A stretch of 64,000 bases of DNA from Nocardioides sp. QY071 (GTDB taxonomy: Bacteria > Actinomycetota > Actinomycetes > Propionibacteriales > Nocardioidaceae): assembly GCF_029961765.1 (NCBI RefSeq), contig NZ_CP124681.1, positions 4,960,001-5,024,000 on the forward strand, written 5' to 3'. Position 1 is the stretch's first letter. Every line of letters starts with the position of its first letter. The position numbers and the translations under genes are program-made. A model generated the notes under the pieces. The model made no database searches. It had not been told where the DNA came from and saw only the letters and a program-made list of their open reading frames with translations. This document shows, piece after piece, positions 33,165-50,233 of the stretch.

Positions 33165-34118
33165 TCAGGGCGCCAGCAGCCGATCCAGCACGACCGGCAG
33201 CTCCGCGAGCGCGTCGAGCGAGGCCATCCGCGCTCCGGCCTCGCGGGCGAACCGCCGGGCCTCGTCGTCGTCCGACGCCGGCGCGACGACCAGCAGCTCG
33301 TCGAGTCCGCGCGCGGCCGGGATCGGGTCCACGTCGTCGGTGACCCGGCAGTCCGAGAGCAGCAGCGTGATCCGGCGCCGGGCCCGGGCGCCGGACAGCT
33401 GATCGCGCGCCGCCCGCAGCGCTGCGTCGAGCGAGGTCATCCCGTGGCCACGCAGCCCGAGGACCCGTTCGACCGTACGGCGGGCCGGGCTCGCCGTACC
33501 GAGCGCGACGACCGTCTCTGCCCGGCGGTCGAAGGCCACCACCGCGAACTCACCACCGGAATCGGCCGACCTGAGGGCGCAGGCAGCGGCAGCCATGGCC
33601 GCGGTCGCGAGCCGCCGGCCTTCCATCGAACCGGAGCGGTCGACGAGCAGGCACAGCGCGGTCGCCGGCCTCTCCCACACCGACGCGGTCAGCTCGTCGA
33701 GGGCCGGCGGGCGTCCCTCGCCGCGGGCCACGGCGACCGCCTCCAAGGAGGCGTCGAGGTCGAGGTCGCCCCCGCGGTCGGCGCGGGTCGGCCGCAGCCG
33801 GCCGGCACCGATCCGGCCGTGCGGACCGCTGCGTGCCCGCTCGATGACCAGCCGCGGCACGAGCGCCTGGACCCGCGCCCGCAGGGCGGGGTCGGTGGCG
33901 CGACTCATCAGCGCGAGCAGCGGCAGCACGTCGTCCGGGTCCTCGGCGACGGCCGCCTCGACGGCCGCCACGTCGAGCTCGCCGACCTCCGGCGAGAGCT
34001 CCTCGAACCGCGGGTTGCGCGCCAGCTCGCAGCGGCCGTTCGTGCGCTCGGGCCGCCCACGGCGCGAGGTCGCCGGGGGCGGCGGGGAGGTGCCCGCCCC
34101 GACCGGGGGCGGGCTCAG
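33165..34118 (-). CDS. VWA-domain protein paired with MoxR ATPase
   Basis: The frame is open for 317 residues up to the stop of the upstream ATPase. A von Willebrand A domain (about residues 150-310) has the MIDAS motif DRSGS and later MTSLDAAL. Before it lies NPRFEELSPEVGELD, which looks like real protein, so a start at the GTG at 33971 would cut off part of the conserved region. The only start near the open end is a CTG at 34118, overlapping the upstream TGA as CTGA; the true start is therefore uncertain. MoxR-VWA pairs act as metal- or cofactor-inserting chaperones for partner enzymes; the partner here is probably the adjacent alcohol dehydrogenase. Confidence 0.72.
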   Translation of the reverse strand: MSPPPVGAGTSPPPPATSRRGRPERTNGRCELARNPRFEELSPEVGELDVAAVEAAVAEDPDDVLPLLALMSRATDPALRARVQALVPRLVIERARSGPHGRIGAGRLRPTRADRGGDLDLDASLEAVAVARGEGRPPALDELTASVWERPATALCLLVDRSGSMEGRRLATAAMAAAACALRSADSGGEFAVVAFDRRAETVVALGTASPARRTVERVLGLRGHGMTSLDAALRAARDQLSGARARRRITLLLSDCRVTDDVDPIPAARGLDELLVVAPASDDDEARRFAREAGARMASLDALAELPVVLDRLLAP

Positions 34119-35020
34119 GCTTCCCCCGGGCGCGGCTCCTCCGCAGCGTCGCCTCCGGAGGAGGGCGGCGGTCCGAAGTGCGTGGTGTAGAGCTCGGTGA
34201 TGATCTCCTCGGGCCGCCGGGTGGACGCCTCGTCGACGCGTACCCGCCCGCTCAGCGCGACCAGGGCCGCGTCGAGCCCGGCCTGCCAGTCGTCCTCGGC
34301 GACGTCCCGCGCCCGGGTCAGCTGGTGGTTGATCCCCGCCAGGTCGATGGTCCCGCGCACCGACGAGCCGACGCGGAGCTCGGGGTGCTCGCGGGTCGCC
34401 CGCACCAGCGCGACCGCGCGGTCGCGCCAGTCGTCCGAGGGGACCGGTGCCCGCTGGGCGACGATCCGCGCCTCGGCACCGGCGGACTGGTAGCCCATCG
34501 CGATCCGGCAGGTCCGGTCGTAGACGGCCGAGGAGACGCGGGCGGTGCCGACGGCGTCGTACGGGTTCATCGCCGCGACGACCGCGAAGCCCGGCGCCGC
34601 ACGGACCAGGCCGAGCCGAGGTACGACGATCTCCCGCTCCGACATCACGGTGAGCAGCGTGTTGAGGGTCTCCTCGGGCACCCGGTTGAGCTCCTCGACG
34701 TACAGCAGGCCGCCCTCGCGCATCGCCGTGAGCAGCGGCCCGTCGACGAAGACGTCGGGCTGGTAGCCCCGGCTGAGCACCAGGGCGGGGTCGAAGTGGC
34801 CGACCAGCCGGGCCGGGGTCAGCTCGGCATTGCCCTCGACGAGGGCGAACGAGCGGTCCCGGCCGGCGGCGACCCGGCGCAGGAGGGTGGTCTTGCCGGT
34901 GCCGGGAGGCCCCTCGAGGACGACGTGGGCGCCACTGGCCAACGCCGCCTCGAGGAGCTCGGTCTCCCGTGCCCGGTCGACGACCCCGAGGGCCGCGAGC
35001 TCCGACAGCACAGCAGTCAT
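34115..35020 (-). CDS. MoxR-family AAA+ ATPase
   Basis: 301 residues. Walker A is GPPGTGKTTLLRR near residues 38-50. The Walker B/sensor region reads LLYVEELNRVPEETLNTLLTVMSE, and sensor 1 is AMNPYD. This is the AAA_3/CbbQ-like MoxR group, which works with a VWA partner to remodel or load cofactors into enzymes. It lies between an alcohol dehydrogenase gene (9 bp upstream) and the VWA gene (overlapping downstream), so the three form an operon. Function is inferred from the family and the neighbours. Confidence 0.88.
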   Translation of the reverse strand: MTAVLSELAALGVVDRARETELLEAALASGAHVVLEGPPGTGKTTLLRRVAAGRDRSFALVEGNAELTPARLVGHFDPALVLSRGYQPDVFVDGPLLTAMREGGLLYVEELNRVPEETLNTLLTVMSEREIVVPRLGLVRAAPGFAVVAAMNPYDAVGTARVSSAVYDRTCRIAMGYQSAGAEARIVAQRAPVPSDDWRDRAVALVRATREHPELRVGSSVRGTIDLAGINHQLTRARDVAEDDWQAGLDAALVALSGRVRVDEASTRRPEEIITELYTTHFGPPPSSGGDAAEEPRPGEA

Positions 35021-35029
35021 CAGCCCTCG

Positions 35030-36142
35030 TCAGTGCTCGTGGACGACGACGCCGCGCACGTTCTTGCCGTTGAGCAGGTCGTCGTACCCCTCGTTGACCT
35101 GGTCGAGGGTGTAGGTGCGGGTGAGGATCTCGTCGAGCTTGAGGTCGCCGGACTGGTAGAGGCCGAGGATCCGCGGGATGTCGACGGTCGGGTTGCAGTC
35201 GCCGAAGAGGCTGCCGCGCAGCTCCTTGCGGAACAGCGTGAGGATCGAGCCGGGCAGCTGGATGTTCGTCTCCTCCAGCTTGTTGAGGCCGGTCAGCACG
35301 ACCTTGCCGCCCTTTCCGACCGCGTTGAAGCCGTCGGCGACGATCTCGGAGGTCATCAGCCCGGGCGTGAGGATCGCCGAGTCCGCCATCTGCCCGCGGG
35401 TCAGGTTGGTGATCGTCTCCATCGCGAGCTCGGCGGACTCGAACGCGTGCGTGGCGCCGAGCTCCATCGCCTTCTCGCGCTTGTTGGCGAGCGGGTCGAT
35501 CGCGATGACGTTCTTGGCGCCGGCGAGCGCGGCACCCTGGACGGCGTTGATGCCGATGCCGCCGATGCCCATGATGACGACGGTGTCGCCGGCCCTGACC
35601 TCGGCGGTGTTGACGGCCGCGCCCCAGCCGGTGGGTACGCCGCAGCCGACCAGGACCGCCTTCTCCAGCGGCAGGTCGTCATCGACCTTCACGCACGAGT
35701 TCTGGTGGATGACGCCGTACTGGCTGAAGGTGCCGAGCATGCACATGGCGCCGTACTGGCCTGCGGGCCCGGTGATCGGGAACCGCTCGCCGGGCAGGTA
35801 GCCGTCGAGGATGGTGGCACCCATGTCGCAGATCGACTGCTGCCCGTTGGCGCAGTAGCGACAGCTGCCGCAGTTGGGGATGAACGAGCAGACGACGTGG
35901 TCGCCGACCTTGACCCGGCTCACGCCGGGGCCGACCTCCTCGATGATGCCGGCACCCTCGTGCCCCAGGACCATCGGCAGCCGCGCCTCCAGGTCGCCGT
36001 GGGCGATGTGCACGTCGGAGTGGCACAGCCCGGCGTGGGTGTAGCGGATCAGCACCTCGCCCTCGCGGGGCTTGTCGAGGGTCAGCTCCTCGATCACGAT
36101 CGGCTTGCCGGTCTCGTAGACGACTGCGGCCTTGGTCTTCAT
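35030..36142 (-). CDS. NDMA-dependent zinc alcohol dehydrogenase (mycofactocin-dependent type)
   Basis: 370 residues. Catalytic zinc ligands are in GLCHSDVH and GHEGAG, and the structural zinc site is CGSCRYCANGQQSIC. The cofactor loop is GIGGIGINAVQGA. The sequence, notably CSFIPNCGSCRYCANGQQSICDMGA, fits the medium-chain alcohol dehydrogenase family that co-occurs with mycofactocin genes, keeps a tightly bound nicotinamide and passes electrons to mycofactocin (NDMA in assays). It is the first gene of an operon with MoxR and VWA genes. Its promoter is divergent from an AcoR-like regulator and faces a TGTTCAG-N3-CTGGACA palindrome and a CRP-like site. Confidence 0.9.
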   Translation of the reverse strand: MKTKAAVVYETGKPIVIEELTLDKPREGEVLIRYTHAGLCHSDVHIAHGDLEARLPMVLGHEGAGIIEEVGPGVSRVKVGDHVVCSFIPNCGSCRYCANGQQSICDMGATILDGYLPGERFPITGPAGQYGAMCMLGTFSQYGVIHQNSCVKVDDDLPLEKAVLVGCGVPTGWGAAVNTAEVRAGDTVVIMGIGGIGINAVQGAALAGAKNVIAIDPLANKREKAMELGATHAFESAELAMETITNLTRGQMADSAILTPGLMTSEIVADGFNAVGKGGKVVLTGLNKLEETNIQLPGSILTLFRKELRGSLFGDCNPTVDIPRILGLYQSGDLKLDEILTRTYTLDQVNEGYDDLLNGKNVRGVVVHEH

Positions 36143-36226
36143 GAGGGTTCTCCTGGAGTGGGGCGCCGGGGCGTCGGCGACGGGGACGTGACGCCGGACA
36201 CACTCGCAACGCGGCGGCCCCTTGGT

Positions 36227-36243
36227 TGTTCAGAAACTGGACA
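36227..36243 (+). promoter_or_regulatory. TGTTCAG-N3-CTGGACA site between the alcohol dehydrogenase and regulator genes
   Basis: TGTTCAGAAACTGGACA lies within a larger near-palindrome, GGTTGTTCAG-AAA-CTGGACAACC, at 36224-36246. The arms match the site at 33118-33134 exactly over 14 of 17 positions; only the 3-bp spacer differs. It is 85 bp upstream of the zinc alcohol dehydrogenase start and 76 bp upstream of the regulator start. Confidence 0.7.
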
Positions 36244-36270
36244 ACCGGCTGCCAACCCCGTGGCGTTTAC

Positions 36271-36286
36271 TGTGACCGCGGTCACG
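36271..36286 (+). promoter_or_regulatory. CRP/GlxR-like site
   Basis: TGTGACCGCGGTCACG fits TGTGA-N6-TCACA at 9 of 10 positions, and GTGACCGCGGTCAC inside it is a perfect 14-bp palindrome. It is 33-48 bp before the GTG of the AcoR-like regulator gene. Actinobacterial CRP-family proteins use this motif to control carbon catabolism. Confidence 0.6.
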
Positions 36287-36318
36287 AGGCCGGTTGACGG
36301 CAGGTTGAGGAGAGACGC

Positions 36319-37929
36319 GTGGCGACTGGAACCGAGGAGCTCCGCGACCCGATCGCGCAGTCGTGGCAGCGCGCCGCGATGGCCGGGCTGACCCCGGGCA
36401 GTGCGCTGGACCACGTGACCTACAGCGACGTCGACACGTCCGGTCCCCTGCTCTCCGCGGCATCGGAGGTGCTCGACGACCTCAACGACCAGCTGCAGGG
36501 GACGATGTTCTCCACGTTGCTGGTGGACCGCGAGGGCCGGATCGCCCAACGCTGGTGCGGCGACCGCGGCGGCCGCCGGGCCTTCGACCACCTCGGGCTC
36601 GACGTGGGCGCCTCGCTCCTGGAGGAGGCCGTGGGCACCAACGCCCTCGGCACCGTGCTGGAGACCCGGACGAGCATCTCGATCAACGGCAGCGAGCACT
36701 TCGCGGTCCCGCTGCGGCGGTTCAGCTGCTACGGCCACCCGATCTTCCATCCGACCACGCGCCGGATCGAGGGAGTCCTCGACATCACCGCGCTGATGGA
36801 GGAGGCGAGTCCCCTGTTGCCGCCCCTCGTGGCTCGCGCGGTCGCCGACATCGAGCAGCGACTGCTCGACCGCAGCCGCGTCTCCGACAAGCAGCTGCTC
36901 GCAGCCTTCCAGGCGGCCGGGACCCGGCGCCGCGCGGTCGTGGCGATCGGGCAGGACCTCTTCATGTCGAACCAGGCGGCCTCCGACCTGCTCGGCTCGA
37001 CCGACGTCGCCCTGCTGCGGATGCTCGTCGGCGACCTGCACGACAACGCCGACGTCGACCTGACCCTCGAGTCCGGGTTGGAGGTCCGGGTCGAGGCCAG
37101 TCGGGTCGGCGGGGCCCGCGGAGGTGCGCTGCTCCACGTCGAGCCGCGCCGCGAGCTCCGGGTGGCCCCGCACCCGTTCCGTCCAGACCTCGCCCACGCG
37201 CCCGTGCTGGTCTCCGGTCCCCCCGGGTCCGGCCGCTCCACCGAGGCGCGCCGCGCGAGCGAGGTCCAGCCGGTCACGGTCCTCACCGCCGCCTCGGCGC
37301 TGCTCGACGGCGCCGAGGCGTGGGCGCGGAACTTCGGCGCCCTGGTCCGCGCCGGTCAGGGAACCGTCTGCGTCGACGGCGTCGACCTGCTCCCCGACGA
37401 CCTCGTCGACCTCGTCGCCTCACACCTCGCGGAACGACGGGCCCCGCGGCTGGTGCTGGTGTGCGGCCCCGTCGACGGCCTGTCGGGGAGGGCCGCCGCG
37501 CTCGCCGGCGAGTGCACCGAGCGTCGGGTGCTGACGTCCTTGTCGAGTCGGCCGCACGAGCTGCCCGAGCTGGTCCGGCGGATGCTCAGGGAGCTCGGTG
37601 CGGACCCCTCGCTGCACTTCACGCCGGGCGCGCTGCGCGCCCTCTCGGCCCAGCCGTGGCCCGGCAACCTGCGCGAGCTGCGGGCCGTCGTCGACCACGT
37701 CGCCCGCCACCAACGCACCGGCGCGGTCGTGCTCGACCAGCTGCCCGAGGCCTACCGGGCCCAGGAGCCGACCAAGCGGCTCGCCCCGATCGAGCACGCC
37801 GAGCGGGCCGTCATCGTCGAGGCACTGCGCGAGCACGGCGGCAACAAGGTGAAGGCGGCGCAGTCGCTGGGCATCTCGCGCACCACCCTCTACGCGAAGA
37901 TGCGGGCGCTGCGGATCACGGTCTACTGA
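36319..37929 (+). CDS. AcoR-like transcriptional regulator (GAF, degenerate AAA+, Fis-type HTH)
   Basis: 536 residues, GTG start with GAGGAGAG upstream. The N-terminal half has the AcoR-like GAF sensor (LLEEAVGTNALGTVLETR...SCYGHPIFHPTTRRIEGVLDITA). The middle keeps only a weak Walker A (SGPPGSGRST), and no GAFTGA loop for sigma-54 contact is visible. The C-terminus is a Fis-type helix-turn-helix (GGNKVKAAQSLGISRTTLYAKMRAL). It should act without sigma-54. It probably controls the divergent alcohol dehydrogenase operon and the aldehyde dehydrogenase through the TGTTCAG-N3-CTGGACA sites. Its end overlaps the convergent mftF stop by 7 bp. Confidence 0.86.
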   Translation: MATGTEELRDPIAQSWQRAAMAGLTPGSALDHVTYSDVDTSGPLLSAASEVLDDLNDQLQGTMFSTLLVDREGRIAQRWCGDRGGRRAFDHLGLDVGASLLEEAVGTNALGTVLETRTSISINGSEHFAVPLRRFSCYGHPIFHPTTRRIEGVLDITALMEEASPLLPPLVARAVADIEQRLLDRSRVSDKQLLAAFQAAGTRRRAVVAIGQDLFMSNQAASDLLGSTDVALLRMLVGDLHDNADVDLTLESGLEVRVEASRVGGARGGALLHVEPRRELRVAPHPFRPDLAHAPVLVSGPPGSGRSTEARRASEVQPVTVLTAASALLDGAEAWARNFGALVRAGQGTVCVDGVDLLPDDLVDLVASHLAERRAPRLVLVCGPVDGLSGRAAALAGECTERRVLTSLSSRPHELPELVRRMLRELGADPSLHFTPGALRALSAQPWPGNLRELRAVVDHVARHQRTGAVVLDQLPEAYRAQEPTKRLAPIEHAERAVIVEALREHGGNKVKAAQSLGISRTTLYAKMRALRITVY

Positions 37930-39350
37930 GCCGGGCGTCCGGTCGCGCCCGGTCGGCGCACGAGGAGACAGCGCGGACTGCGCCGGCGGATCGCGCCCCA
38001 CCACAGGCCGCTGCCGTAGGCGAGGTCGTCCAGCCGCCGGGCCACGAGCGCGGTGAACGGGTCGATGCCGGTGCGCTCGCGGAGGAAGACGGCGAGGTCG
38101 ATCACGACCGCGGTGGCGAGCGCGCGACGGACGGAGCGGCTGAAGGGAGCGGCGAGTGCGGCGAGCGGCCACCAGTGCCGGAGCAGGAGACCGGCTTCCT
38201 GGCGCACTGCCCATGCGGTGCCCTTCGCGGCGAGCCGGGCAGCGACCACGGTCCGGCCCTCCTCGACCGGCAGCTGCGGGGCGAGCCGACGGGCGGTGAC
38301 GGCACCCGCGACGACCGCCACGGGGAGCGACCACCGACGTCGCTGCAACAGCGCCCAGCCGCTGAGGGCCATCATCGGCGACAGCACGGCGGGGGCGACC
38401 TTGTCGCCGTGACGCGCGGCGAGGTCGGCGCCGCCGGTGCCGTAGAAGAACTTGCGGCCCAGCCAGGTGCGCACGGTGCCGCGGACGTCGTGGTCGGCGC
38501 GGACGCCGGGGTCGTAGCGGACGACATGGCCGGCGTCGACGAGCCGCCAGACCAGGTCGACGTCCTCGGCGACGCGCCACCCGTCCTCGAACCCACCCGT
38601 GTCGCCGGCAAGGAGGTCGGTGCGGCCGACGAGGCAGGCGGAGGGGAGCCAGCCGGTCGCCGCGCCGGGCCGGACCACGCCGCCGGTGCTGCCCAGGTCG
38701 AGCGAGGAGGCGGCGGCGTCGTACCGCTCGAACCAGCGGGCCCGACGACCGGGTGCGGTGCGCACCTTGCCGACCACCTGCGGACCGACCAGTGCGACCT
38801 GCGGGTCGGCGCAGTGGCGGGCGAGGTCGAGCAGGCGAGAGGCGTCGATGGTCACGTCGGAGTCGACGAAGGCGACGAGCGGGGTCCGGACGAGCCGCAG
38901 GCCCGCGTTGCGCGCGCCGGCAGGACCGACGTTGGTGGTGAGCCGGTGTACCCGGGCGCCGTGCCGGTGGGCGACCTCGGCCACCCGGTGCGGCTGCTCG
39001 GAGTCGTCGTCGACCACGATCACCGGCAGCGGCACCAGCGCCGCCAGGCAACGGGCCAGCTGCTCGCTCCGGTCACGCACGGGTACGACGACGGTGAGCT
39101 CGGTCAGCGGGACCTCGACATCGCCCAGCAGGGGGTTCGCGAGGTTGCCGTCGAGCAGGCGGCGGGCCAGGCGCGCCGTGGCCTGGTCCTCGACGACCAG
39201 GTCGCCGCCGGCCAGCAGGCTGCGGGCCCGGTCTCCGAGCCGGACCGCGCGCACCGGGGAACCGCCGACCAGCAGGCGGCCGCCGTCCGTGAACACCACG
39301 TCGTCGCGCAGGCGGACCCGGAAGCCGTCGGCGAGGGTCGCGGTCGTCAT
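37923..39350 (-). CDS. mftF: Mycofactocin glycosyltransferase MftF
   Basis: 475 residues. An N-terminal region of about 90 residues resembles the start typical of MftF. A GT2 domain follows with TVVVPVRDRSEQLARCL, VVDDDS, GPAGARNAGLRL and the DxD-type VDSDV. Hydrophobic segments near the C-terminus suggest membrane association. MftF attaches glucose units to mycofactocin precursors, giving oligoglycosylated cofactor. The ATG overlaps the upstream SDR stop by 4 bp. It is the last gene of the mft operon. Confidence 0.92.
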   Translation of the reverse strand: MTTATLADGFRVRLRDDVVFTDGGRLLVGGSPVRAVRLGDRARSLLAGGDLVVEDQATARLARRLLDGNLANPLLGDVEVPLTELTVVVPVRDRSEQLARCLAALVPLPVIVVDDDSEQPHRVAEVAHRHGARVHRLTTNVGPAGARNAGLRLVRTPLVAFVDSDVTIDASRLLDLARHCADPQVALVGPQVVGKVRTAPGRRARWFERYDAAASSLDLGSTGGVVRPGAATGWLPSACLVGRTDLLAGDTGGFEDGWRVAEDVDLVWRLVDAGHVVRYDPGVRADHDVRGTVRTWLGRKFFYGTGGADLAARHGDKVAPAVLSPMMALSGWALLQRRRWSLPVAVVAGAVTARRLAPQLPVEEGRTVVAARLAAKGTAWAVRQEAGLLLRHWWPLAALAAPFSRSVRRALATAVVIDLAVFLRERTGIDPFTALVARRLDDLAYGSGLWWGAIRRRSPRCLLVRRPGATGRPAQ

Positions 39351-40075
39351 GGCGCGAAGCCTCCGTCGGCGCGCACGACCGACCCGTTGAGCACCGCCGC
39401 TTCGCTGCTGCAGCAGAACACGAGCGCGGCGGCGACCTCCTCGGGCTCGAGGATGCGCCGGAGCAGCTGGTTGTCCGCGAAGGTGTCGACGTCGTCGAGC
39501 CCGTAGAGCGCCGCGGTGGCCTCCAGCATCGGCGTCCGGGTCGAACCGGGTGACACGGCGCACGCCGTGACGCCGGTGCCGACGAGGTCGGCGGCCAGGC
39601 CCTTCACGAGTCCGATGACGGCGTGCTTGGCGGCGTTGTAGGCGGCGAGGTGGTGCAGGCCGTGGTGGCCGGCGGCGGAGGCGACGGCGACGAAGCGGCA
39701 GCCGGACGGGTCGGGGCCGGCGAGCATGGCGGGGACGGTGACGGCTGCGGTGTTCCACACGCCCTTCACGTCGACGTCCCAGAGCAGGTCGAGGTCGGCC
39801 TCGGGTGTCTCCCAGAGGGGCCGGCCGCCGGCGACGACCGCGGCCGCGGCGACGGCGGCGTCGAGCCGGCCCCACGTCTCGATCGCGAGGTCGACGGCCG
39901 CGGCCAAGGCGGACCGGTCCCGGACGTCGGCGACGACCGGGAGCACCTGAGGGTCGGTCTCGGCGATGGTGAGCTCGTCGACCGCGACGACGCGGTTGCC
40001 CCGGGCGACGAGGCGACGTACGGTCGCGGCGCCGATGCCGCGCGCCGCCCCGGTCACCAGGACCACCCGGGTCAT
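39347..40075 (-). CDS. Mycofactocin-associated short-chain dehydrogenase
   Basis: 242 residues. The NAD-binding motif TGAARGIGAATVRRL and the active-site Y-x3-K (YNAAKHA) after the SAAGHHG serine segment are complete. This is the SDR that sits between mftE and mftF in mycofactocin operons of actinobacteria. Members of this group keep a tightly bound nicotinamide and transfer electrons to mycofactocin rather than to free NAD. The substrate is not known. It overlaps both neighbours by ATGA. Confidence 0.88.
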   Translation of the reverse strand: MTRVVLVTGAARGIGAATVRRLVARGNRVVAVDELTIAETDPQVLPVVADVRDRSALAAAVDLAIETWGRLDAAVAAAAVVAGGRPLWETPEADLDLLWDVDVKGVWNTAAVTVPAMLAGPDPSGCRFVAVASAAGHHGLHHLAAYNAAKHAVIGLVKGLAADLVGTGVTACAVSPGSTRTPMLEATAALYGLDDVDTFADNQLLRRILEPEEVAAALVFCCSSEAAVLNGSVVRADGGFAP

Positions 40076-40749
40076 CGTCGGACCGCGTCCACGACGTCTG
40101 CGACCATCGACGCGAGCGCCGCTGCCCCCTCCTCGGCGCTGGCTCCCGTCGGGTCGCCGAGGACGCCGTTGGGCGAGACCGCCTTGACCCCACCCGCCAT
40201 CATCAGCGGGAGCAGCTCCGCGAGGGTCCCGGTGTTGCCGGCCTCCGCGCGGTCGAGCCAGACGTTCCACGGCGCGATGTGCAGCATCAGCGAGGTCTCG
40301 GTGCGGCCCGCGTGCAGGTCGACCTCCTCGGTCGCGCAGGCCGCCCAGTCGACGTCGTGCCCCTCGTCCACCAGCCGACGTACGGCGCCCCGCAGGGCCA
40401 CGACGTTGCCACCGTGGGCGTTGACGAACACGATCCGCGACGCCCAGGTGGACATCGACCGGGTGAGCTCGACGAGGACGTCGTGAAGGACGGTCGTGCC
40501 GATCGAGCTGGTGCCGGAGAAGTCCTGGTGCTCCCCGCTCGAGCCGTAGGTGAGCGCGGGCGCGACCAGGACCGACGTGCCGGCCGCCGTCATCTGCTCC
40601 GCGGCGCGCGAGGCCACCGTGGTCGCGATGATCGTGTCGGTGTCGAGCGGCAGGTGCGGACCGTGCTGCTCGATCGAGCCGACCGGGACCAGCACCGTGG
40701 GTCCTGCCGGGATGGCGGGCGAGGTCGCGGACGCCAGCTCGGGGGCCAT
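40072..40749 (-). CDS. mftE: Mycofactocin precursor peptide peptidase MftE
   Basis: 225 residues of the creatininase fold. The metal-binding pattern GSIEQHGPHLPLDTD and VFVNAHGGNV are intact. MftE cleaves the modified MftA peptide to release the C-terminal Val-Tyr-derived AHDP unit. It starts 2 bp after the mftD stop and ends in an ATGA overlap with the SDR gene, which fixes the start at 40749. Confidence 0.93.
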   Translation of the reverse strand: MAPELASATSPAIPAGPTVLVPVGSIEQHGPHLPLDTDTIIATTVASRAAEQMTAAGTSVLVAPALTYGSSGEHQDFSGTSSIGTTVLHDVLVELTRSMSTWASRIVFVNAHGGNVVALRGAVRRLVDEGHDVDWAACATEEVDLHAGRTETSLMLHIAPWNVWLDRAEAGNTGTLAELLPLMMAGGVKAVSPNGVLGDPTGASAEEGAAALASMVADVVDAVRR

Positions 40750-40751
40750 GG

Positions 40752-42005: not shown

Positions 42006-43309
42006 GAGCAGCAGCCTCCGTTGTCCCCGGTGGTCGAGGAGGTTGCGCAGCAACCGTCACGAGACCCCGGCTGGGCGAGTGGGTCGAATCCGGCCAGCGG
42101 GCTCTCGGCACACGCCGAGACGGGCGGCGCAGTGAGGAGCTTGAGCATCACCGGCTGGTTGCGCGTGGGGTTGGCCTTAGAGTGGTCCTGGCTGGGCGCG
42201 GGGATGGTGCGGTCGCCGGCGAGGGCGTGCTCGCCGTACCCCTGCACGCACTCGGGGTCCGGGCCGTCCAGCGGCAGCCCGGTGAAGAACTTCGCAGCCA
42301 TGCAGCCACCGCGGCACGAGTCGAAGAACTGGCACGACGAGCAGGCGCCACCGGTCTGCGGCGAGCGGAGCTCGTTGAACAGTGCCGAGTCCTGCCAGAC
42401 CTTCTGGAAGCCGCCGTCGGCGAGCAGGTTGCCGGCGAGGAAGTTGTCGTGGATCGCGAACGGGCAGGCGTAGACGTCGCCGATCGGGTCGATCAGGCAC
42501 ACCACGCGCCCGGCGCCGCACAGGTTGAGGCCCGGCAGGGACTCACCGAAGGCCGCGAGGTGGAAGAACGAGTCCCCGGTGAGGACCTCCTCCCCGTCAG
42601 CGGTGTGGGCCATCAGCCAGTCGTAGAGCTCGCGCTGCTGCTCCGGCAGCGGGTGCAGCTCGTCCCACACGTCCGCGCCACGGCCGCTGGGACGCAACCG
42701 GGTGAGGCGCAGCGTCGCGCCATACTCGTCGGCCAGCGCCTTGAACTCGTCGAGCTGACCGATGTTCTCCCGCGTGCAGACCACGGAGATCTTCGCGTCC
42801 GCGAACCCGGCGTCCTTGAGGTTCGCCAAGGCACGCAGCGCGGTGTCGTAGGAGCCGGGGCCGCGGACGTAGTCGTTGACCTCGGCGGTCGCGCCGTCGA
42901 GCGAGATCTGCACGTCGACGTAGCCGTTGCACGCCGGGGAGGCCAGGAACGCCGCACGCTCGGGGGTGATCCGCACGCCGTTGGTGGAGAACTTCACGCC
43001 CACCTGGTGGTTGACGGCGTACTCCAGCAGCTCCCAGAAGTCGGGGCGGATGGTCGGCTCACCGCCGCCGATGTTGACGTAGAACACCTGCATCCGCTGC
43101 AGCTCGTCGATCACTGCCTTGCACTGCTCGGTCGACAGCTCACGCGGGTCACGCCGGCCCGACGAGGACAGGCAGTGGGCGCACTCGAGGTTGCAGGCGT
43201 AGGTCAGCTCCCAGGTCAGGCAGATCGGGGCGTCGAGGCCGTACTCGAACTGCTGGACCAGCGATCCGGTCTCGGGACGCTGCATCGGTCGGTCGGGTGC
43301 GATCGTCAT
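42002..43309 (-). CDS. mftC: Mycofactocin radical SAM maturase MftC
   Basis: 435 residues. The radical SAM cluster motif is CNLECAHC near residue 37. The SPASM region near the C-terminus has the cysteines of CGAGRVVCLIDPIGDVYACPF and CSSCQFFDSCRGGC for auxiliary clusters. MftC decarboxylates the C-terminal Tyr of MftA and forms the Val-Tyr C-C bond. About 22 residues at the end (GSRDGCCATSSTT...) are encoded across an antisense copy of the dispersed repeat at 42032-42070 and are not a normal part of the family. Start and stop overlap mftB and mftD by 1 and 4 bp. Confidence 0.95.
   Translation of the reverse strand: MTIAPDRPMQRPETGSLVQQFEYGLDAPICLTWELTYACNLECAHCLSSSGRRDPRELSTEQCKAVIDELQRMQVFYVNIGGGEPTIRPDFWELLEYAVNHQVGVKFSTNGVRITPERAAFLASPACNGYVDVQISLDGATAEVNDYVRGPGSYDTALRALANLKDAGFADAKISVVCTRENIGQLDEFKALADEYGATLRLTRLRPSGRGADVWDELHPLPEQQRELYDWLMAHTADGEEVLTGDSFFHLAAFGESLPGLNLCGAGRVVCLIDPIGDVYACPFAIHDNFLAGNLLADGGFQKVWQDSALFNELRSPQTGGACSSCQFFDSCRGGCMAAKFFTGLPLDGPDPECVQGYGEHALAGDRTIPAPSQDHSKANPTRNQPVMLKLLTAPPVSACAESPLAGFDPLAQPGSRDGCCATSSTTGDNGGCCS
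42032..42070 (+). repeat. Third copy of the dispersed palindromic repeat, in the mftC tail
   Basis: All 39 bp are identical to 25694-25732 in the PDH E2 gene. Here the repeat reads antisense to mftC and encodes part of its C-terminal extension, ending 28 bp before the stop codon. The central GGTTGC-GCA-GCAACC hairpin is retained. Confidence 0.85.
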
Positions 43310-43697: not shown

Positions 43698-43721
43698 CAT
43701 CTCTCCTCCAGCTCGTGCCGA

Positions 43722-43737
43722 TGTGGTAGCCGCCACA
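43722..43737 (+). promoter_or_regulatory. Palindrome between mftA and mftR
   Basis: TGTGG (43722-43726) and CCACA (43733-43737) form a perfect inverted repeat with a 6-bp spacer. It is 25-40 bp upstream of the mftA start and in the intergenic space shared with mftR. It may be an MftR operator. The 5-6-5 layout also matches 8 of 10 positions of a CRP-like TGTGA-N6-TCACA site. Confidence 0.5.
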
Positions 43738-43818
43738 CTAAATGCACCAATGGCAGAAAGTCACCCCTCCGTTCGGCGGGGGTTCGACCTCGACCCTCGG
43801 GCGGTAGGTTGACGGCCC

Positions 43819-45020: not shown

Positions 45021-45099
45021 GCGCAGGAGGACCTTTCGTCGTCGACGCGGGTCCGCCCCAGCTCACGGACCCGTCGTCGCGCAGGCTAGGCCGCAGCCC

Positions 45100-45116
45100 G
45101 CTGCAGCTACGTTGCA
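45100..45116 (-). promoter_or_regulatory. TGCAAC direct-repeat site between adk and the acetate transporter gene
   Basis: On the minus strand the sequence reads TGCAACGTAGCTGCAGC, two TGCAAC half-sites 11 bp apart with one mismatch in the second. It resembles the sites at 54548, 54625 and 55902. It faces adk in the same orientation and at about the same distance (80 bp) as the copies before the alcohol and aldehyde dehydrogenase genes. The rest of the 231-bp gap shows a GGAGG ribosome site before 45252 and no further gene. Confidence 0.5.
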
Positions 45117-45251
45117 CCGGGCCGGGCCCCACCGTCGGGTGGGTCGAGCCCGTCCGACCGGGCAGTCCCAACTGCGACCTGCTCGCAGGGTGCGGACCCG
45201 ACCGCACCGTCGGCACAGTGACCGGGACCACATCCCCTCTGGAGGTATCCC

Positions 45252-45845
45252 ATGTCCACTGAAACCCCTGTCCCCGACGGCAACCCCGGCCTGATCGGAG
45301 TCCCGACCTTCCTCGTCGGCTCGGTCGCCCTCGGCCTGGTCCTGGTCGGCTTCGTCCCCTCCAGCGCCGGCTCGGCGTCGATCCCGATCATCGCGACCGC
45401 CACCGCGTTCGGCCAGGCCGTGGCGGCCGTGTGGGCGACGCGGCTCAACCAGAACGCCGTCGCCGCCATCTTCGGCATCTTCACCGGCTTCTGGTCGAGC
45501 TACGCGGCGCTCGTCCTCGGCCTGACGCACAACTGGTTCGGGATCCTTCCCGCGGACGCCGTGCGGACCCAGGAGCTGTTCCTCGGCTCCTGGCTCGCCG
45601 TCATCGTCCTCCTCACGCTGGCCACCCTGCGCCTGCCGCGTGCGTTCACGATCCTGTTCGGCCTGATCGACCTCGCCCTGCTGCTGGTCCTGCTCGGCAC
45701 GGCCCAGGCCAGCACCGACCTGACCCGGCTCGGCGGCTACACCGTGTTCGCCTTCGTCAGCGTCGGGGCATACCTGTTCCTCGACGCCATGTCGCAGGCC
45801 ACCGGCGGCCGGGCCCTGCCCCTCGGCGCGCCGATCCGCGCCTGA
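45252..45845 (+). CDS. GPR1/FUN34/YaaH-family acetate transporter
   Basis: 197 residues with six predicted membrane helices. NPGLIGVPTFLVGSVALGL near the start is a form of the family signature NPxPLGLxxFA, and AAIFGIFTGFWSSYAALVLG matches the third helix of YaaH/SatP. The family moves acetate, or succinate, with protons across the cytoplasmic membrane. It is placed directly before the NDMA-dependent methanol/ethanol dehydrogenase gene and fits recovery or release of acetate made during alcohol oxidation. GGAGG lies 6 bp before the ATG. Confidence 0.83.
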   Translation: MSTETPVPDGNPGLIGVPTFLVGSVALGLVLVGFVPSSAGSASIPIIATATAFGQAVAAVWATRLNQNAVAAIFGIFTGFWSSYAALVLGLTHNWFGILPADAVRTQELFLGSWLAVIVLLTLATLRLPRAFTILFGLIDLALLLVLLGTAQASTDLTRLGGYTVFAFVSVGAYLFLDAMSQATGGRALPLGAPIRA

Positions 45846-45949
45846 TCACCGACGGGAAGCGCCGGTTGGATCCGGGGCTGTGGCGGAGTGCCGGACGGCG
45901 CTCCACCGCAGCCCCTTTCCCATGGGCCTGCCGGAAGGACGACCGGCCT

Positions 45950-46012
45950 CTCCGACCGGGCAGGTCGGAGCCGAACCATCCGTTCAGGAGCCGCTCCTCA
46001 CAGCGGATGGTT
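45950..46012 (+). promoter_or_regulatory. Two tandem hairpins ahead of the methanol dehydrogenase gene
   Basis: The first has an 8-bp perfect stem, CTCCGACC/GGTCGGAG, with a 5-base loop (45950-45970). The second has outer arms AACCATCCG (45974-45982) and CGGATGGTT (46004-46012) enclosing a small AGGAG-CCG-CTCCT hairpin. They fill the middle of the 245-bp gap between the transporter and dehydrogenase genes. They could end the upstream transcript or be a structured leader or operator for the dehydrogenase. Confidence 0.55.
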
Positions 46013-46090
46013 TGCGTTTCCCAGCCTCCCCGCCGGGGTGTGACCAGCCTTACGTTCCGGTGGTCAGCACGTCCCACCAGGAGGTTCCTC

Positions 46091-47383
46091 ATGCAGGTTG
46101 ACGAACTGCTCAAGCCGTTCCCGATCAAGGAGTTCCACCCGTTCCCACGGGCCCTCATGGGCCCCGGAGCGCACGAGCTCATCGGTCCCGAGGCCATCAA
46201 GCTCGGCTTCACCAAGCCGCTCGTCATGACGTCGGGCCTTCGCGGCACGAACGTGGTCCAGAAGATCGTGGACTCGCTCAAGTACCACGGCCTCGAGGCC
46301 GTCGTGTACGACAAGGTCGAGTCCAACCCGAAGGACTACAACGTCATGGACGCGGTGGCCCTGTACCAGCAGAACAAGTGCGACTCGTTCATCTCGATCG
46401 GTGGCGGCTCCTCGCACGACGCGTGCAAGGGCGCGCGCATCTCGGTCGCCCACGACGGTCGCAACGTCAACGACTTCGAGGGCTTCAACAAGTCGGAGAA
46501 CCCGAACAACCCGCCCCACATCGCCGTCTCCACCACGGCCGGCACCGGTTCGGAGACCTCGTGGGCCTACGTCATCACCGACACCACGACGGACCCCGAC
46601 AACCCGCACAAGTACGTCGCCTTCGACGACGCATCGGTGGCCACCCTCGCCATCGACGACCCGGTGCTCTACTTCGACTGCCCGGTCGACTACACCGCGC
46701 AGTGCGGCTTCGACGTTCTCGCGCACGCCTCTGAGCCCTACGTGTCGCGGCTCAACTTCGAGCCGTCGCTGGGCAACGCGATCCGGGCCATCAAGCTGAC
46801 CGCGGAGAACCTGCGCGAGGCGGTCTGGAACGGCCAGGACCTCAAGGGTCGCGAGGGGATGATGTACGCCCAGTACATCGCCGCGCAGGCGTTCAACTCC
46901 GGCGGCCTGGGCATCATCCACTCGATCTCGCACGCGGTCTCGGCGTTCTACGACACCCACCACGGGCTCAACAACGCGATCGCGCTCCCCCGCGTGTGGG
47001 CGTTCAACATGCCTGCGCAGTACGGCCGGTTCGCCGACATCGCCGAGGCGATGGGCGTCGACACGCACGGCATGACCAAGCCGCAGGCAGCCGACGCCGC
47101 GCTCGCCGCCGCGATCCGGCTGCTGCGCGACGTGGGCATCCCCGAGAACTTCGTCTCGGTCACCCAGGACACCTACTCCAAGAACCGGCTCGGCCTGGGC
47201 CCGACCAAGTACTACGAGAACGCCAAGGTGATCAAGGGCGACGCCGTCGATGTCGACCGCATCACCAACCACGTGCTCGGCGACGCCTGCACCCCCGGCA
47301 ACGCCAAGGAGTGCACGTTCGAGACCGTGCGCCCCGTCGTGGACCACTGCATGACCGGCGATCTGGACGACCTCCTGTCCTGA
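46091..47383 (+). CDS. mno: NDMA-dependent methanol/ethanol dehydrogenase (iron-type, mycofactocin-dependent)
   Basis: 430 residues of the iron-containing alcohol dehydrogenase family. The nucleotide loop is ISIGGGSSHDACKG, TTAGTGSETSWAYVIT follows, and the metal ligands are the Asp and His of GFDVLAHASEPYVS and the histidines of HSISHAVSAFYDTHHGLNNAI. The start MQVDELLKPFPIKEFHPFPRALMGPGAHELIG is that of actinobacterial methanol:NDMA oxidoreductases, decameric enzymes with bound NAD(P) and Zn/Mg that pass electrons to mycofactocin. ATG 46091 follows AGGAGG. MoxR, VWA and mftM genes follow in the same direction. Confidence 0.93.
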   Translation: MQVDELLKPFPIKEFHPFPRALMGPGAHELIGPEAIKLGFTKPLVMTSGLRGTNVVQKIVDSLKYHGLEAVVYDKVESNPKDYNVMDAVALYQQNKCDSFISIGGGSSHDACKGARISVAHDGRNVNDFEGFNKSENPNNPPHIAVSTTAGTGSETSWAYVITDTTTDPDNPHKYVAFDDASVATLAIDDPVLYFDCPVDYTAQCGFDVLAHASEPYVSRLNFEPSLGNAIRAIKLTAENLREAVWNGQDLKGREGMMYAQYIAAQAFNSGGLGIIHSISHAVSAFYDTHHGLNNAIALPRVWAFNMPAQYGRFADIAEAMGVDTHGMTKPQAADAALAAAIRLLRDVGIPENFVSVTQDTYSKNRLGLGPTKYYENAKVIKGDAVDVDRITNHVLGDACTPGNAKECTFETVRPVVDHCMTGDLDDLLS

Positions 47384-47484
47384 GCCACCGTGACTCGGTC
47401 CGGCTCGGGTGAGCCGGGGCACGCGCCCCCGGGCCGGACCGATCCACACCCCCATCCACCGCCCCGTCGCCCCAGGAGGCACCC

Positions 47485-48681
47485 ATGTCCGCCCGACCCC
47501 TCGACGCCGTGCGCGACCACGCCGGCTTCACCGACGTCGCCGACGTCATCGACCAGTTCGCCGAGCACGGCTACCTCGCCGACGAGCGCCTGGCGACCAC
47601 CGTCTTCCTGCAGGCACACCTGGAGAAGCCGATCCTGCTCGAGGGCCCGGCGGGCGTGGGCAAGACCCAGCTGGCGAAGTCGCTGGCCGAGGTCACCGGA
47701 CGGCGACTGCTGCGCCTGCAGTGCTACGAGGGCCAGGACGAGACGACGGCCCTGTACGAATGGGACTACGGGAAGCAGCTGCTCTACACGCAGCTGATGC
47801 GGGAGAAGGTCGGCGCCCTGGTCGCCGACGCCCCCGACCTGGCCAGCGCCGTGGACACCCTCGCGGGAGAGGAGAGCGTCTTCTTCTCCGAGCGTTTCCT
47901 CGCCGCCCGTCCGCTGCTCGAGGCGATCCGGTCCGAGGACCCGGTGATCCTGCTCGTCGACGAGGTCGACCGCGCCGACGAGGCGCTCGAGGCCGTCCTG
48001 CTCGAGCTGCTCGCCGAGTACCAGGTCTCCGTCCCGGAGCTGGGGACCTTCCGGGCCCGGCACACGCCGTACGTGATCCTCACGTCCAACAACACGCGTG
48101 ATCTCTCGGCCGCGCTCAAGCGGCGCTGCCTCCACCTCTTCCTCGACTACCCCGACGCGGAGCGAGAGCTCGACATCATCAGGTCCAAGAGGACCGGGCT
48201 GTCCGACGAGCTCGCCCGCCAGCTGGTCGGCGTCGTGCGCGGCCTGCGCGAGCTCGACCTGCGCAAGGCACCGAGCATCTCCGAGACGGTCGACTGGGCC
48301 CGCACGCTCGCGGTCCTCGGCGCCGAGGAGCTCACGGCGGAAACGCTGTCGGCGACCGCCAACGTCGTGGTGAAGTACGAGCGCGACCTGCGCCGCGCGC
48401 TCGAGGCACTGCCGCGGATGGTCGACCCGAACGCGGTCGTCCCCGGCCACCTGCACGACCACGGCCACGGTCATGGACATGGCCACGGGCACGGACACGG
48501 ACACGACCACGGGACCACGACCGGTCCCGACGAGCCCGACGGGGCCGAGGTACGCCGTGCGAAGGACCTCCCGGGGCGGCATGACGAGGCGTACTACGGG
48601 ACCGGTTCCATGGGGCCCAGCCGTCCCGTTCCTGCCGGCCAGGGTGCCCGCTCGTTCGGCTCGCGCCGCCGCCCCTTCTGA
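47485..48681 (+). CDS. MoxR-family AAA+ ATPase with histidine-rich tail
   Basis: 398 residues. Walker A is GPAGVGKTQLAK near residue 54, Walker B is PVILLVDEVDRAD, and sensor 1 is LTSNNT. After the ATPase domain, residues 322-343 are an almost pure His-Gly run (HDHGHGHG...HDHG), followed by a basic, Gly/Pro-rich end. Such tracts bind divalent metals. Placed between a metal-dependent dehydrogenase and a VWA gene, it is a good candidate for an ATPase that inserts metal or cofactor into the dehydrogenase. That role is inferred. AGGAGG lies before the ATG. Confidence 0.9.
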   Translation: MSARPLDAVRDHAGFTDVADVIDQFAEHGYLADERLATTVFLQAHLEKPILLEGPAGVGKTQLAKSLAEVTGRRLLRLQCYEGQDETTALYEWDYGKQLLYTQLMREKVGALVADAPDLASAVDTLAGEESVFFSERFLAARPLLEAIRSEDPVILLVDEVDRADEALEAVLLELLAEYQVSVPELGTFRARHTPYVILTSNNTRDLSAALKRRCLHLFLDYPDAERELDIIRSKRTGLSDELARQLVGVVRGLRELDLRKAPSISETVDWARTLAVLGAEELTAETLSATANVVVKYERDLRRALEALPRMVDPNAVVPGHLHDHGHGHGHGHGHGHGHDHGTTTGPDEPDGAEVRRAKDLPGRHDEAYYGTGSMGPSRPVPAGQGARSFGSRRRPF

Positions 48682-48697
48682 AGCCGGGGTCTGTGCC

Positions 48698-50233
48698 ATG
48701 GACGGCGCCCTTCACCGATTCGTGCGTCTGCTGCGACTACACGGCATCCGGATCGGGATCTCCGAGGTAGTGGACGCGTCGCGCGCTGCCGGCGCCCCCG
48801 GAGTCCTCGACGACAGAGAGCTGCTCCGCAGCGCGCTGCGCGTGACGTTGGTCAAGGACCAGCGGGACGAGGCCGCCTTCGACCGGGTCTTCGACCGCTT
48901 CTTCCGGCTGCGCGCCGTGCTCGACTCCCCTGAGGAGCACGGGCACTCCCACGCCCACGACGACCTCTCGGACGACGGCGAGCTCGACGAGTTCGTGCTG
49001 TCCGAGGAGCCCGGTCGCACACCCAGCCAGGGACACAGCCACGGCAAGCCCCAGGACATCCGTGACTTCTTCGACCCCGAGGACCTCGCCCAGCAGTACA
49101 ACCTGCACCAGGAGGCGAACAAGCTCGACATGGCCGCGATGACCGACGAGATCGTGCTGTCCAACGACGGCGCCGGATCCGCCACGAACGCCGCTCGCGT
49201 CCAGCTCGACACCTCACGGCTGCACAACCCGGGCCGGCCGGGGAGGATCGCCGACCGGACGGGCACGCGGCTCGACTCGGAGCTGACGGTCGCCGAGGAG
49301 ATGGCCCTGCTGGCCTGGCTCGACGAGGGCGACGACGAGACCGTGGAGGGCAGCACGGTCGGGACCGATGACCTGGCCGCGCTGCGAACGGCACTCTCCG
49401 GTCTTCTCGACGGTCTCCCGGCGGCACTCCAACGCCACCTCGAGGAGCTGCTGGCCACCGAGGCCGCCATCGAGTCCCGCGAGGCCCGGGCCCGCGAGAT
49501 CGACCGGATCGGCGAGGTCGAGCGGGCCACGCTGGAGGAATCGCTGCGCAGACTGGTTCGCAGCCTCCACGGGGCGCCGAGATCGCGGCGTCGCGAGGCC
49601 GCCCGGGGCAGCATCGACGGCTCACGCACCATGCGCCGCAACCTCCGCAACGACGGCGTGCCGTTCCGCCCGGTGACGGTCGCGAAGGTGACCGACAGGC
49701 CGCGCCTCGTCGTGCTGGCGGACGTCTCCCTCTCCGTCAGGGCCGCAGCCCGCTTCACGCTGCAGCTGGTCCACGGGCTGCAGGGCATCGCCTCGCACGT
49801 ACGCACCTTCGCCTTCGTCTCCGACCTGGTCGAGGTGACCGATCACTTCGCAGAGCACCCGATGGAGGAGGCCCTGTCCCTGACGCTCTCCGGGCTTCCC
49901 GCCGGTGGCGTGCTCGACGTCGACACCGACTCCGACTACGGCTCGGCCTTCCGGCAGTTCCTCGACGAGTTCGGGGGCGGGCTCAACCGGCGGACCACGG
50001 TGGTCGTGCTGGGCGACGGGCGCGGGAACGGCAACGACGCGGCCGTCGGGGTGTTCGAGGAGATCACCCGACGGGCCCGCGAGACGATCTGGATCACACC
50101 TGAGCCGCGGTACTCGTGGACCCTCGGCAGCTGCGACCTCCCGGCGTACGCCGCCCACTGCGACCGCGTCCACGTCGTCCGCGACCTGGCCGGGCTGGAC
50201 CTGGTCACCTCCCACCTGACCGAGATCCGATGA
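48698..50233 (+). CDS. VWA-domain (CoxE-like) partner of the MoxR ATPase
   Basis: 511 residues. An N-terminal helical region resembling CoxE proteins (HRFVRLLRLHGIRIGISEVVDASRAA) is followed by an acidic middle part with HGHSHAHDD near residue 80 and QGHSHGK near 110. A VWA domain at about 335-490 has the MIDAS motif DVSLS. CoxE-like proteins work with MoxR ATPases in maturation of metalloenzymes. The small His motifs echo the tail of the ATPase encoded 16 bp upstream. The stop overlaps mftM by ATGA. Confidence 0.85.
   Translation: MDGALHRFVRLLRLHGIRIGISEVVDASRAAGAPGVLDDRELLRSALRVTLVKDQRDEAAFDRVFDRFFRLRAVLDSPEEHGHSHAHDDLSDDGELDEFVLSEEPGRTPSQGHSHGKPQDIRDFFDPEDLAQQYNLHQEANKLDMAAMTDEIVLSNDGAGSATNAARVQLDTSRLHNPGRPGRIADRTGTRLDSELTVAEEMALLAWLDEGDDETVEGSTVGTDDLAALRTALSGLLDGLPAALQRHLEELLATEAAIESREARAREIDRIGEVERATLEESLRRLVRSLHGAPRSRRREAARGSIDGSRTMRRNLRNDGVPFRPVTVAKVTDRPRLVVLADVSLSVRAAARFTLQLVHGLQGIASHVRTFAFVSDLVEVTDHFAEHPMEEALSLTLSGLPAGGVLDVDTDSDYGSAFRQFLDEFGGGLNRRTTVVVLGDGRGNGNDAAVGVFEEITRRARETIWITPEPRYSWTLGSCDLPAYAAHCDRVHVVRDLAGLDLVTSHLTEIR

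Follow-up and report, generated by a model that had tools for sequence, protein, structure and literature searches.

The window analysed here comprises 64,000 nucleotides (nt) of the 5.7 Mb genome of Nocardioides sp. QY071 (contig NZ_CP124681.1, positions 4,960,001 to 5,024,000; G000:C1:4960001-5024000 in our survey, whose genomes and loci are labelled G and L). It carries two gene pairs, each consisting of an AAA+ ATPase of the MoxR group and a protein with a von Willebrand factor A (VWA) domain, and each directly following a dehydrogenase of the mycofactocin (MFT) type. The explanation that best accounts for the data as a whole, and that we regard as reasonably probable from the sequences, is that the two pairs are separate AAA+/VWA remodelling machines for MFT-dependent nicotinoprotein dehydrogenases. 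The pair behind the zinc-type alcohol dehydrogenase (pair 1: MoxR1 and VWA1) would be produced by ribosomal frameshifting, and the pair behind the iron-type methanol dehydrogenase (pair 2: MoxR2 and VWA2) would act with a histidine-rich tail.

A sequence-only reading of this DNA had described both pairs and called them unrelated-looking. Profile matches confirmed the pairs and the MFT-type dehydrogenases in front of them (Table 1), and the two ATPases proved to belong to different MoxR branches, MoxR1 to the NorQ/CbbQ kind and MoxR2 to a MadB-like kind, the MadB model scoring 56 bits with MoxR1 versus 378 with MoxR2. The P-loop GPPGT of MoxR1 was invariant (10/10), and a MoxR1 profile search retrieved NorQ and CbbQ chains. 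In VWA1 the DxSxS-T-D motif of the metal ion-dependent adhesion site (MIDAS) was intact, with D160, S162, S164, T228, and D256 invariant in 33/33 sequences. The predicted model of VWA1 (mean predicted local distance difference test score 92) had NorD as its best fold match, and ranks 1-5 of a Foldseek search against the PDB were all NorQD entries, with TM-scores of 0.44-0.59. VWA2 starts at 48698, 16 nt past the MoxR2 stop codon. Pair 2 had been described as fused by overlap to mftM; the overlap exists, and it amounts to a 4-nt ATGA (VWA2 stop 50231-50233, mftM ATG 50230).

In the window, no ATG, GTG or TTG precedes the conserved part of VWA1, and the "start" at 34118, from which it had been taken as a gene of its own, is a CTG overlapping the MoxR1 stop. 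This missing start codon led to the finding that the pair, correctly noticed as present, is probably a single frameshifted gene, which the first reading had missed. Separate genes with a late GTG start of VWA1 at 33971 were rejected because the conserved SPEVGE region would then be lost. A tree of the pair 1 family, built by a quick method, contained a clade linked to the zinc enzyme (ADH clade, 55 rows) and a clade linked to short-chain dehydrogenases/reductases (SDR clade, 21 rows), the partner having changed twice on the tree. In 43 of the 55 ADH-clade rows VWA1 was in the -1 frame, which reads on uninterrupted where MoxR1 stops; the others were nine in-frame fusions, L114 (VWA match in another frame, scored +1), L124 (contig edge), and L143 (cut). 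All 43 rows with a -1-frame VWA contained an in-phase slip heptamer about 10-100 nt upstream of the stop, as did L124, which was counted although its contig ends before VWA. Over these 44 rows the heptamers were G_GGA_AAA (32), G_GGG_GAA (10), C_CCA_AAA (1), and G_GAA_AAA (1). The background in other open reading frames of the same loci (at least 200 codons, GC-filtered) was 20 in-phase heptamers per 259,657 codons, by which 44 windows of 33 codons should hold about 0.1; moreover, six of the 20 background matches, the sole G_GGA_AAA among them, were fused forms of the same gene.

The typical element was GGGAAAA-N6-GCCCC-GAnn-GGGGC. An all-GC 5-bp stem exactly 6 nt beyond the heptamer occurred in 17/44 rows versus 0.35% of 7,242 nearby in-phase positions. 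A strict test (all-GC 5-bp stem at 5-7 nt) was positive in 22/44 against a background of 1.3%, and a loose one (5 or more GC pairs at 4-9 nt) in 36/44. Beyond the MoxR stop the -1 frame was open for at least 150 nt in 44/44 rows, and in 20/44 the 60 nt preceding the slip site held a -1-frame stop. In the window the element reads GGGGGAA (34127-34121), GCCTGA, and then, 6 nt on, a 9-bp stem (34114-34092), its heptamer sitting where several sister genes have G_GGA_AAA. These signals make it probable that the zinc-clade pair 1 is a single gene from which programmed -1 frameshifting yields MoxR alone and a MoxR-VWA fusion.

The fused relatives kept the same signal. Seven of the nine in-frame fusions (L111, L113, L121, L125, L127, L129, L152) retained G_GGA_AAA at the junction, as did L114, which was grouped with them as inverted in wiring and which formed one 8-row clade with these seven. 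A -1-frame stop followed the heptamer by 1 codon in these rows and by 5 codons in L111, so that here a frameshift would yield the short form, the wiring being reversed relative to the other ADH-clade genes. L086 and L089 were plain fusions or unclear. With both wirings taken together, 52 of the 54 readable genes of the ADH clade could apparently give the short as well as the long product. Among SDR-clade rows, 15/21 were separate genes; in L126, L128, and L132, whose VWA is in the -1 frame, the word T_TTT_TTC occurred in phase. L146 and L147, as outgroup loci, did not enter the heptamer count.

In a class-level search, MoxR1 was present in 17 of 296 genomes, which yielded 20 new loci; of these, 10 had VWA in the -1 frame or fused, nine had separate genes, and L197 was without a VWA match. 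Listed heptamers were present in 5/10 of the frame-linked or fused loci: L196 (fused, G_GGA_AAA, -1-frame stop 5 codons on), L205 (G_GGA_AAA), and L206-L208 (T_TTT_TTC right at the stop). No heptamer was found in the remaining ten new loci. T_TTT_TTC at or near the MoxR stop, in L126, L128, L132, and L206-L208, all of SDR-clade type, is a third slip-site type in the family.

The association of each pair with its dehydrogenase extended, for both pairs, beyond this species to many other Actinomycetota. The survey of co-occurrence that the first reading had proposed was made in 215 genomes of the order (E thresholds 1e-40 for MoxR1 (P0002), 1e-125 for TIGR03989, and 1e-100 for TIGR04266) and found pair 1 in 8 genomes and pair 2 in 12. 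Sixteen TIGR03989 genes were listed in 11 genomes, and MoxR1 and TIGR03989 occurred together in 8 (hypergeometric probability about 2e-12, uncorrected for relatedness). MoxR1 stood directly behind a TIGR03989 gene in 7/8 genomes; the eighth locus (L066) belonged to the SDR clade. A scan of named genomes for pair 1 gave at least 80 loci. The 68 with E no higher than 1e-62 were analysed, and L153-L164, 12 of the 80 listed loci with at most 38% identity, were not counted. VWA1 was adjacent to MoxR1 in 64/68, and three of the other four loci ended at a contig edge. Upstream sequence was readable in 66, L087 and L126 at contig edges being left out.

Directly upstream of pair 1, defined for these loci as a same-strand dehydrogenase match ending within 900 nt before the MoxR start, stood a zinc dehydrogenase in 37 of these 66 listed loci, and all 38 linked zinc dehydrogenases, including that of the window, reached TIGR03989 at 1e-100. 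The linked zinc enzymes as a single clade were ruled out by 7 changes on their tree. An MFT-coupled SDR was directly upstream in 14/66 (12 TIGR03971, 2 TIGR04504) and other SDRs in 2/66 (L106, L112). For the SDR alignment, the neighbouring SDR of L141 was substituted for the MoxR-adjacent one, which, scanned alone, also matches TIGR03971. Neither dehydrogenase type was upstream in 13/66; of these, L107, L117, L118, and L144 adjoined mft genes, and an MFT-type SDR was nearby in L139 and L131. The sole two plasmid matches of pair 1, both in Rhodococcus, were beside genes annotated as MFT-coupled SDRs. In the order sample, both pairs were confined to genomes with mftC (8/8 for pair 1 and 12/12 for pair 2). 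mftC itself was present in 21/215 genomes, six of which (G241, G264, G305, G310, G340, G348) had neither pair, and the pairs are therefore probably dispensable for mycofactocin itself.

Pair 2 was linked to the iron-type enzyme. The TIGR04266 enzyme occurred in 12/215 order genomes and the mdo-type MadB2 (at least 359 bits) in the same 12 (hypergeometric probability about 7e-20, relatedness uncorrected). The 12 best MadB-like matches (359-379 bits) were all directly behind the iron-type enzyme, while the next matches (at most 331 bits) were paralogs elsewhere, some MadB-like match being present in 109 order genomes. As a control, none of 35 sampled MadB-like paralogs (L041-L058, L172-L188) had a tblastn match of the two dehydrogenases of the window within 1.5 kb. 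L172-L180 form another MadB-like/VWA group (338-354 bits) in Actinomycetota, with an HD-domain-like protein (by reading only) upstream of L172. In a phylum sample, 9/178 genomes had the iron-type enzyme (E below 1e-100), and the ATPase was adjacent in 8 of the 9, the ninth locus (L012) ending at a contig edge; in G164, whose enzyme fell short of the E threshold, a fragment of the enzyme lay at a contig edge beside the ATPase. Among 61 plasmid records with a match, the mdo-MoxR-VWA unit was present in 4/4 matches of 66-71% identity (Rhodococcus WAY2, Rhodococcus ZPP, Mycolicibacterium chubuense NBB4, and Mycobacterium dioxanotrophicus), and of two weaker matches inspected one was among acyl-CoA dehydrogenase genes and one beside CO dehydrogenase. 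In L077, L078, and L079, plasmid mdo-MoxR-VWA units of Rhodococcus and Mycolicibacterium adjoin genes annotated as methane/ammonia monooxygenase subunits, a context that suggests alcohol handling after hydrocarbon oxidation.

An HxH-rich C-terminal extension was carried by the ATPase in 17/18 of the closest mdo-linked orthologs, L040 being without it, and five more distant mdo-linked ATPases had a short HKHxH end. No such tail was present in 37 sampled MadB-like proteins not linked to the iron-type enzyme, in which the count never exceeded 2 His per 20 residues. Most mdo-linked VWA partners had a short His cluster, to which we give little weight, since 3-4 His in 20 residues also occurred in other VWA proteins. 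The tail of the ATPase, absent from 37/37 unlinked relatives, suggests metal handling by pair 2.

Several observations weigh against the preferred explanation. The word G_GGG_GAA of the window is a weak slip site, since re-pairing in the A site needs a middle G-U pair, and it also arises by chance, making up 13/20 of the background matches. The hairpin stretch of the window was not unusually stable for its composition (z -1.07), and folding of the 43 stretches after slip sites (75 nt, mononucleotide shuffles, without L110) gave z at or below -2 in 10 and above 0 in 9, with a median of -0.7; the stretch folded for L093 ended before its stem and was uninformative. The heptamer list was compiled after a first look at the data, the search reached 120 nt upstream, and L110, without a listed heptamer, was added by hand with G_GAA_AAA. 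The strict prediction failed in L191-L195, half of the 10 frame-linked or fused new loci, which lacked any listed heptamer and instead had G_GGG_GGA, a perfect X_XXY_YYZ, in the same place 10 nt before the TGA, followed 6 nt on by a stem of 6-8 bp in L191-L194, none being found in L195. A broader prediction, that of any slip-competent heptamer, held in 10/10 and was broadened after the data had been seen. As to the clients, no mycofactocin link was seen in 7/66 of the listed loci (L113, L123, L127, L128, L142, L146, L147), and the ADH and SDR clades of pair 1 may have different jobs. The idea of a machine dedicated to each dehydrogenase stands insofar as each pair is tied to its own enzyme, but the pair 1 family is also found behind SDRs, and 3/11 order genomes with a TIGR03989 enzyme (G241, G310, G348) had no pair 1.

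Among other explanations, a possible if rather doubtful one is that the pairs are not assembly factors but activases that, like CbbQO for RuBisCO, act on finished enzymes and expel nicotinamide that is inactive or bound in the wrong way. The ATPase belongs to the CbbQ/NorQ kind, and some mycofactocin-linked nicotinoproteins hold non-exchangeable nicotinamide adenine dinucleotide, according to the available part of PMC3023750, so that a dead cofactor could not leave unaided; the sequences, however, do not separate assembly from repair, and the TIGR03989 genomes without the pair do not favour this explanation. A metal-insertion role of both pairs, with pair 1 supplying zinc and pair 2 iron in the manner of the chaperones NorQD or CoxDE, is unlikely. 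Such a role would agree with the insertion of iron by NorQD, as described in the accessible parts of PMC9976466 and PMC13036017, with the NorD-like fold of VWA1, and with the His-rich tail of MoxR2. Relatives of pair 1, however, sit behind MFT-coupled SDRs in the 14 loci counted above and beside such SDRs in both plasmid matches. SDRs have no catalytic metal, and metal insertion was therefore rejected as a general role of the pair 1 family; we also know of no need of ordinary zinc enzymes of the medium-chain dehydrogenase/reductase (MDR) type for a chaperone. Metal insertion, as suggested earlier, is favoured for pair 2 only.

That MoxR1 and VWA1 are translationally coupled genes without any frameshift, VWA1 starting at the CTG in the overlap CTGA, appears highly improbable. 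The window and many sister loci share this overlap, frequently with no other start-like codon near, and most SDR-clade loci are indeed separate genes. Coupling nevertheless leaves unexplained the in-phase heptamers before the stop in 44/44 rows with their spaced stems, as well as the fused relatives that retain the heptamer with a -1-frame stop, and L091, L092, and L101 have the heptamer without the CTGA overlap. Equally, there is little chance that the pairs are operon hitch-hikers serving mycofactocin biosynthesis or another neighbour, as their place between mftC and mftD/E/F in Agromyces, Compostimonas, and Streptomyces loci (labels except mftC by reading only) and the overlap of pair 2 with mftM could suggest, since the six mftC genomes named above have neither pair, 41/68 listed pair 1 loci, many cut by contig ends, had no MftC/D/F match, and the plasmid mdo-MoxR-VWA units had no annotated mft gene in the stretch seen.

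The preferred explanation, two separate remodelling machines, can be put as a mechanism. Pair 1 would form a NorQD-like ring in which the rate of frameshifting sets the share of subunits with a VWA arm, the VWA domain being tied to one or few ring subunits via a Pro/Gly-rich linker. Through its MIDAS site this arm would take hold of a dehydrogenase that is freshly synthesised or stalled, and the enzyme would be opened by ATP hydrolysis so that the locked nicotinamide could be seated or repaired, or mycofactocin could dock. The cargo of pair 1 is likely the nicotinamide, its repair, or mycofactocin docking, because zinc MDR enzymes and SDRs share the mycofactocin link and a nicotinamide reported to be non-exchangeable in some members, and no metal. 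For pair 2 a comparable function would apply to the iron-type enzyme, which contains metal; the His tail would hold this metal or deliver it. More tentatively, each of the three unrelated folds of MFT enzymes might depend on dedicated MoxR-VWA activases, which would load the locked-in nicotinamide, repair it, or dock mycofactocin; in the zinc branch, -1 frameshifting at G_GGA_AAA plus a hairpin would set the ratio of plain to VWA-bearing subunits, and the wiring would have been inverted (0-frame stop or -1-frame stop) without loss of either product. A helper machine with genetic links to each of the three enzyme families would offer direct access to two questions, namely how nicotinoproteins obtain and retain their tightly held nicotinamide and by what route mycofactocin gets to it. 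The frameshift would also add a conserved recoding event in GC-rich bacteria.

Table 1. Features of the two MoxR-VWA pairs and their surroundings (window coordinates)
Feature	Position	Strand	Support or remark
Aldehyde dehydrogenase adjoining pair 1 (context)	31546..33054	-	PF00171 577 bits
VWA1 (P0001), -1 frame; with MoxR1 would give a fusion of ~618 aa	33165..34121	-	joined reading
Proposed stimulatory hairpin	34092..34114	-	arms 34114-34106 and 34100-34092, 9 G-C pairs, 5-nt loop
MoxR1 (P0002), MoxR AAA+ ATPase of NorQ/CbbQ kind, 301-aa zero-frame product	34115..35020	-	AAA_5 93.9 bits
6-nt spacer (GCCTGA) with MoxR1 stop TGA (34117-34115)	34115..34120	-	between heptamer and stem
Proposed slippery heptamer G_GGG_GAA	34121..34127	-	in phase, 10 nt before MoxR1 stop; overlapping C_CCG_GGG just upstream
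Zinc-type N,N-dimethyl-4-nitrosoaniline (NDMA)-dependent alcohol dehydrogenase (P0005)	35030..36142	-	TIGR03989 527.6 bits, cut-off 440
MFT-coupled SDR within mft cluster	39347..40078	-	NF040491 365 bits, cut-off 265
mftC, mycofactocin radical SAM enzyme (match range)	42227..43258 (G000:C1:5002227-5003258)	-	TIGR03962 633 bits
Iron-type NDMA-dependent methanol dehydrogenase (P0006)	46091..47383	+	TIGR04266 677.5 bits, cut-off 625
MoxR2 (P0003), MadB-like ATPase, C-terminal His-rich tail	47485..48681	+	NF047784 378.1 bits, below cut-off 475
His-rich tail of MoxR2, residues 322-343	48448..48513	+	HxH-rich
VWA2 (P0004), MadC/CoxE-like VWA protein	48698..50233	+	PF05762 112 bits; NF047783 286.1 bits, below cut-off 600
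mftM, mycofactocin methyltransferase	50230..51138	+	NF041255 318 bits, cut-off 200; 4-nt overlap with VWA2

Some further observations concern single loci. Downstream of mftM, the window encodes another iron-type alcohol dehydrogenase-like protein at 53283-54530 (by reading only), with no MoxR/VWA pair seen beside it. L148 has two tandem MoxR1-like stretches followed by one VWA, behind an MFT-coupled SDR. L105, on a contig titled as a Bifidobacterium breve metagenome-assembled genome, has matches to mycofactocin genes and is probably from a mislabelled genome bin. L146 and L147, in Peptococcaceae and Deltaproteobacteria bins, hold distant MoxR1/VWA homologs (44-45% identity), whose neighbours read as corrinoid-protein-like and beta-keto-acid-cleavage-like; no mycofactocin gene was seen there.

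The first reading had held that such pairs were not described as a general part of the mycofactocin system, and our searches agree with it: the open literature searched held no paper that connects mycofactocin with MoxR or VWA proteins, a single text match proving to be a gene table. The passages of PMC3023750 that were searched contain none of the terms "ATPase", "MoxR", and "von Willebrand". Among the matches listed for MoxR and frameshifting, only PMC7911831 has both words, and its frameshift passage, in the part available, is on halovirus tail-chaperone genes. The available part of PMC3023750 gives the nicotinoprotein families an "only-if" relation to mycofactocin, and these families (SDR, zinc, and iron) are the three partners found here for pairs 1 and 2.

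Among known AAA+/VWA systems, pair 2 belongs to the same wider group as MadB/MadC (NF047784/NF047783), but identity with them was ruled out by scores of 378.1 of 475 and 286.1 of 600 bits. No protein above the NF047784 cut-off occurred in the 215 order or 178 phylum genomes, and the function of MadB/MadC and the meaning of "Mad" were not found in the open literature searched. Pair 2 also resembles CoxD/CoxE of CO dehydrogenase in joining a MoxR ATPase to a CoxE-type VWA protein (PF05762); it differs in having mdo and mftM rather than CO dehydrogenase as neighbours, and the His-rich tail and the mdo link are specific to it. Pair 1 is nearest to NorQ/NorD and CbbQ/CbbO, with which it shares the ATPase branch by profile and the MIDAS and NorD-like fold of VWA1. 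NorQ, according to the accessible parts of PMC9976466 and PMC13036017, assembles as a hexamer that carries a single NorD, the VWA finger of which reaches into the pore, and in the model of those authors ATP hydrolysis rotates the finger, stretches the linker, and opens the client. The presumed client of pair 1, however, is an MFT dehydrogenase rather than nitric oxide reductase or RuBisCO; nitric oxide reductase is not a direct neighbour of pair 1, which lies between the TIGR03989 dehydrogenase and the aldehyde dehydrogenase, and in the zinc clade the ATPase and VWA appear to be encoded by one frameshifting gene.

For such decoding there are two parallels. In dnaX, both wirings, in which either the short (gamma) or the long (tau) product comes from the frameshift, are reported in the part of PMC5009743 available, and both occur among pair 1 orthologs. 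The inverted rows of pair 1 resemble E. coli dnaX, in which the frameshift gives the short form (PMC5009743), whereas gene and function are unrelated. The closest precedent is fs-chlD of magnesium/cobalt chelatase, one AAA+ gene that gives a short product and, by -1 frameshifting, a long one, the medium subunit, and that is fused in relatives, as the available parts of PMC3711429 and PMC9227772 describe; frameshifting there was measured at 63, 40, and 10% (PMC3711429). The slip sites of fs-chlD are A-rich, whereas those of pair 1 are mostly G_GGA_AAA, and the ATPase of pair 1 is a MoxR protein (AAA_5), not ChlI/ChlD. Pair 1 is not a chelatase D subunit, MoxR1 scoring 37.7 of 499.55 bits with TIGR02031 (BchD-ChlD), and the cobaltochelatase model (cut-off 779.45 bits) gave 26.9 with MoxR1 and 30.3 with VWA1. 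As far as we found, pair 1 would thus be the second AAA+/VWA family, after the chelatases, in which both parts come from one gene, which suggests that the subunit ratio is central to such machines.

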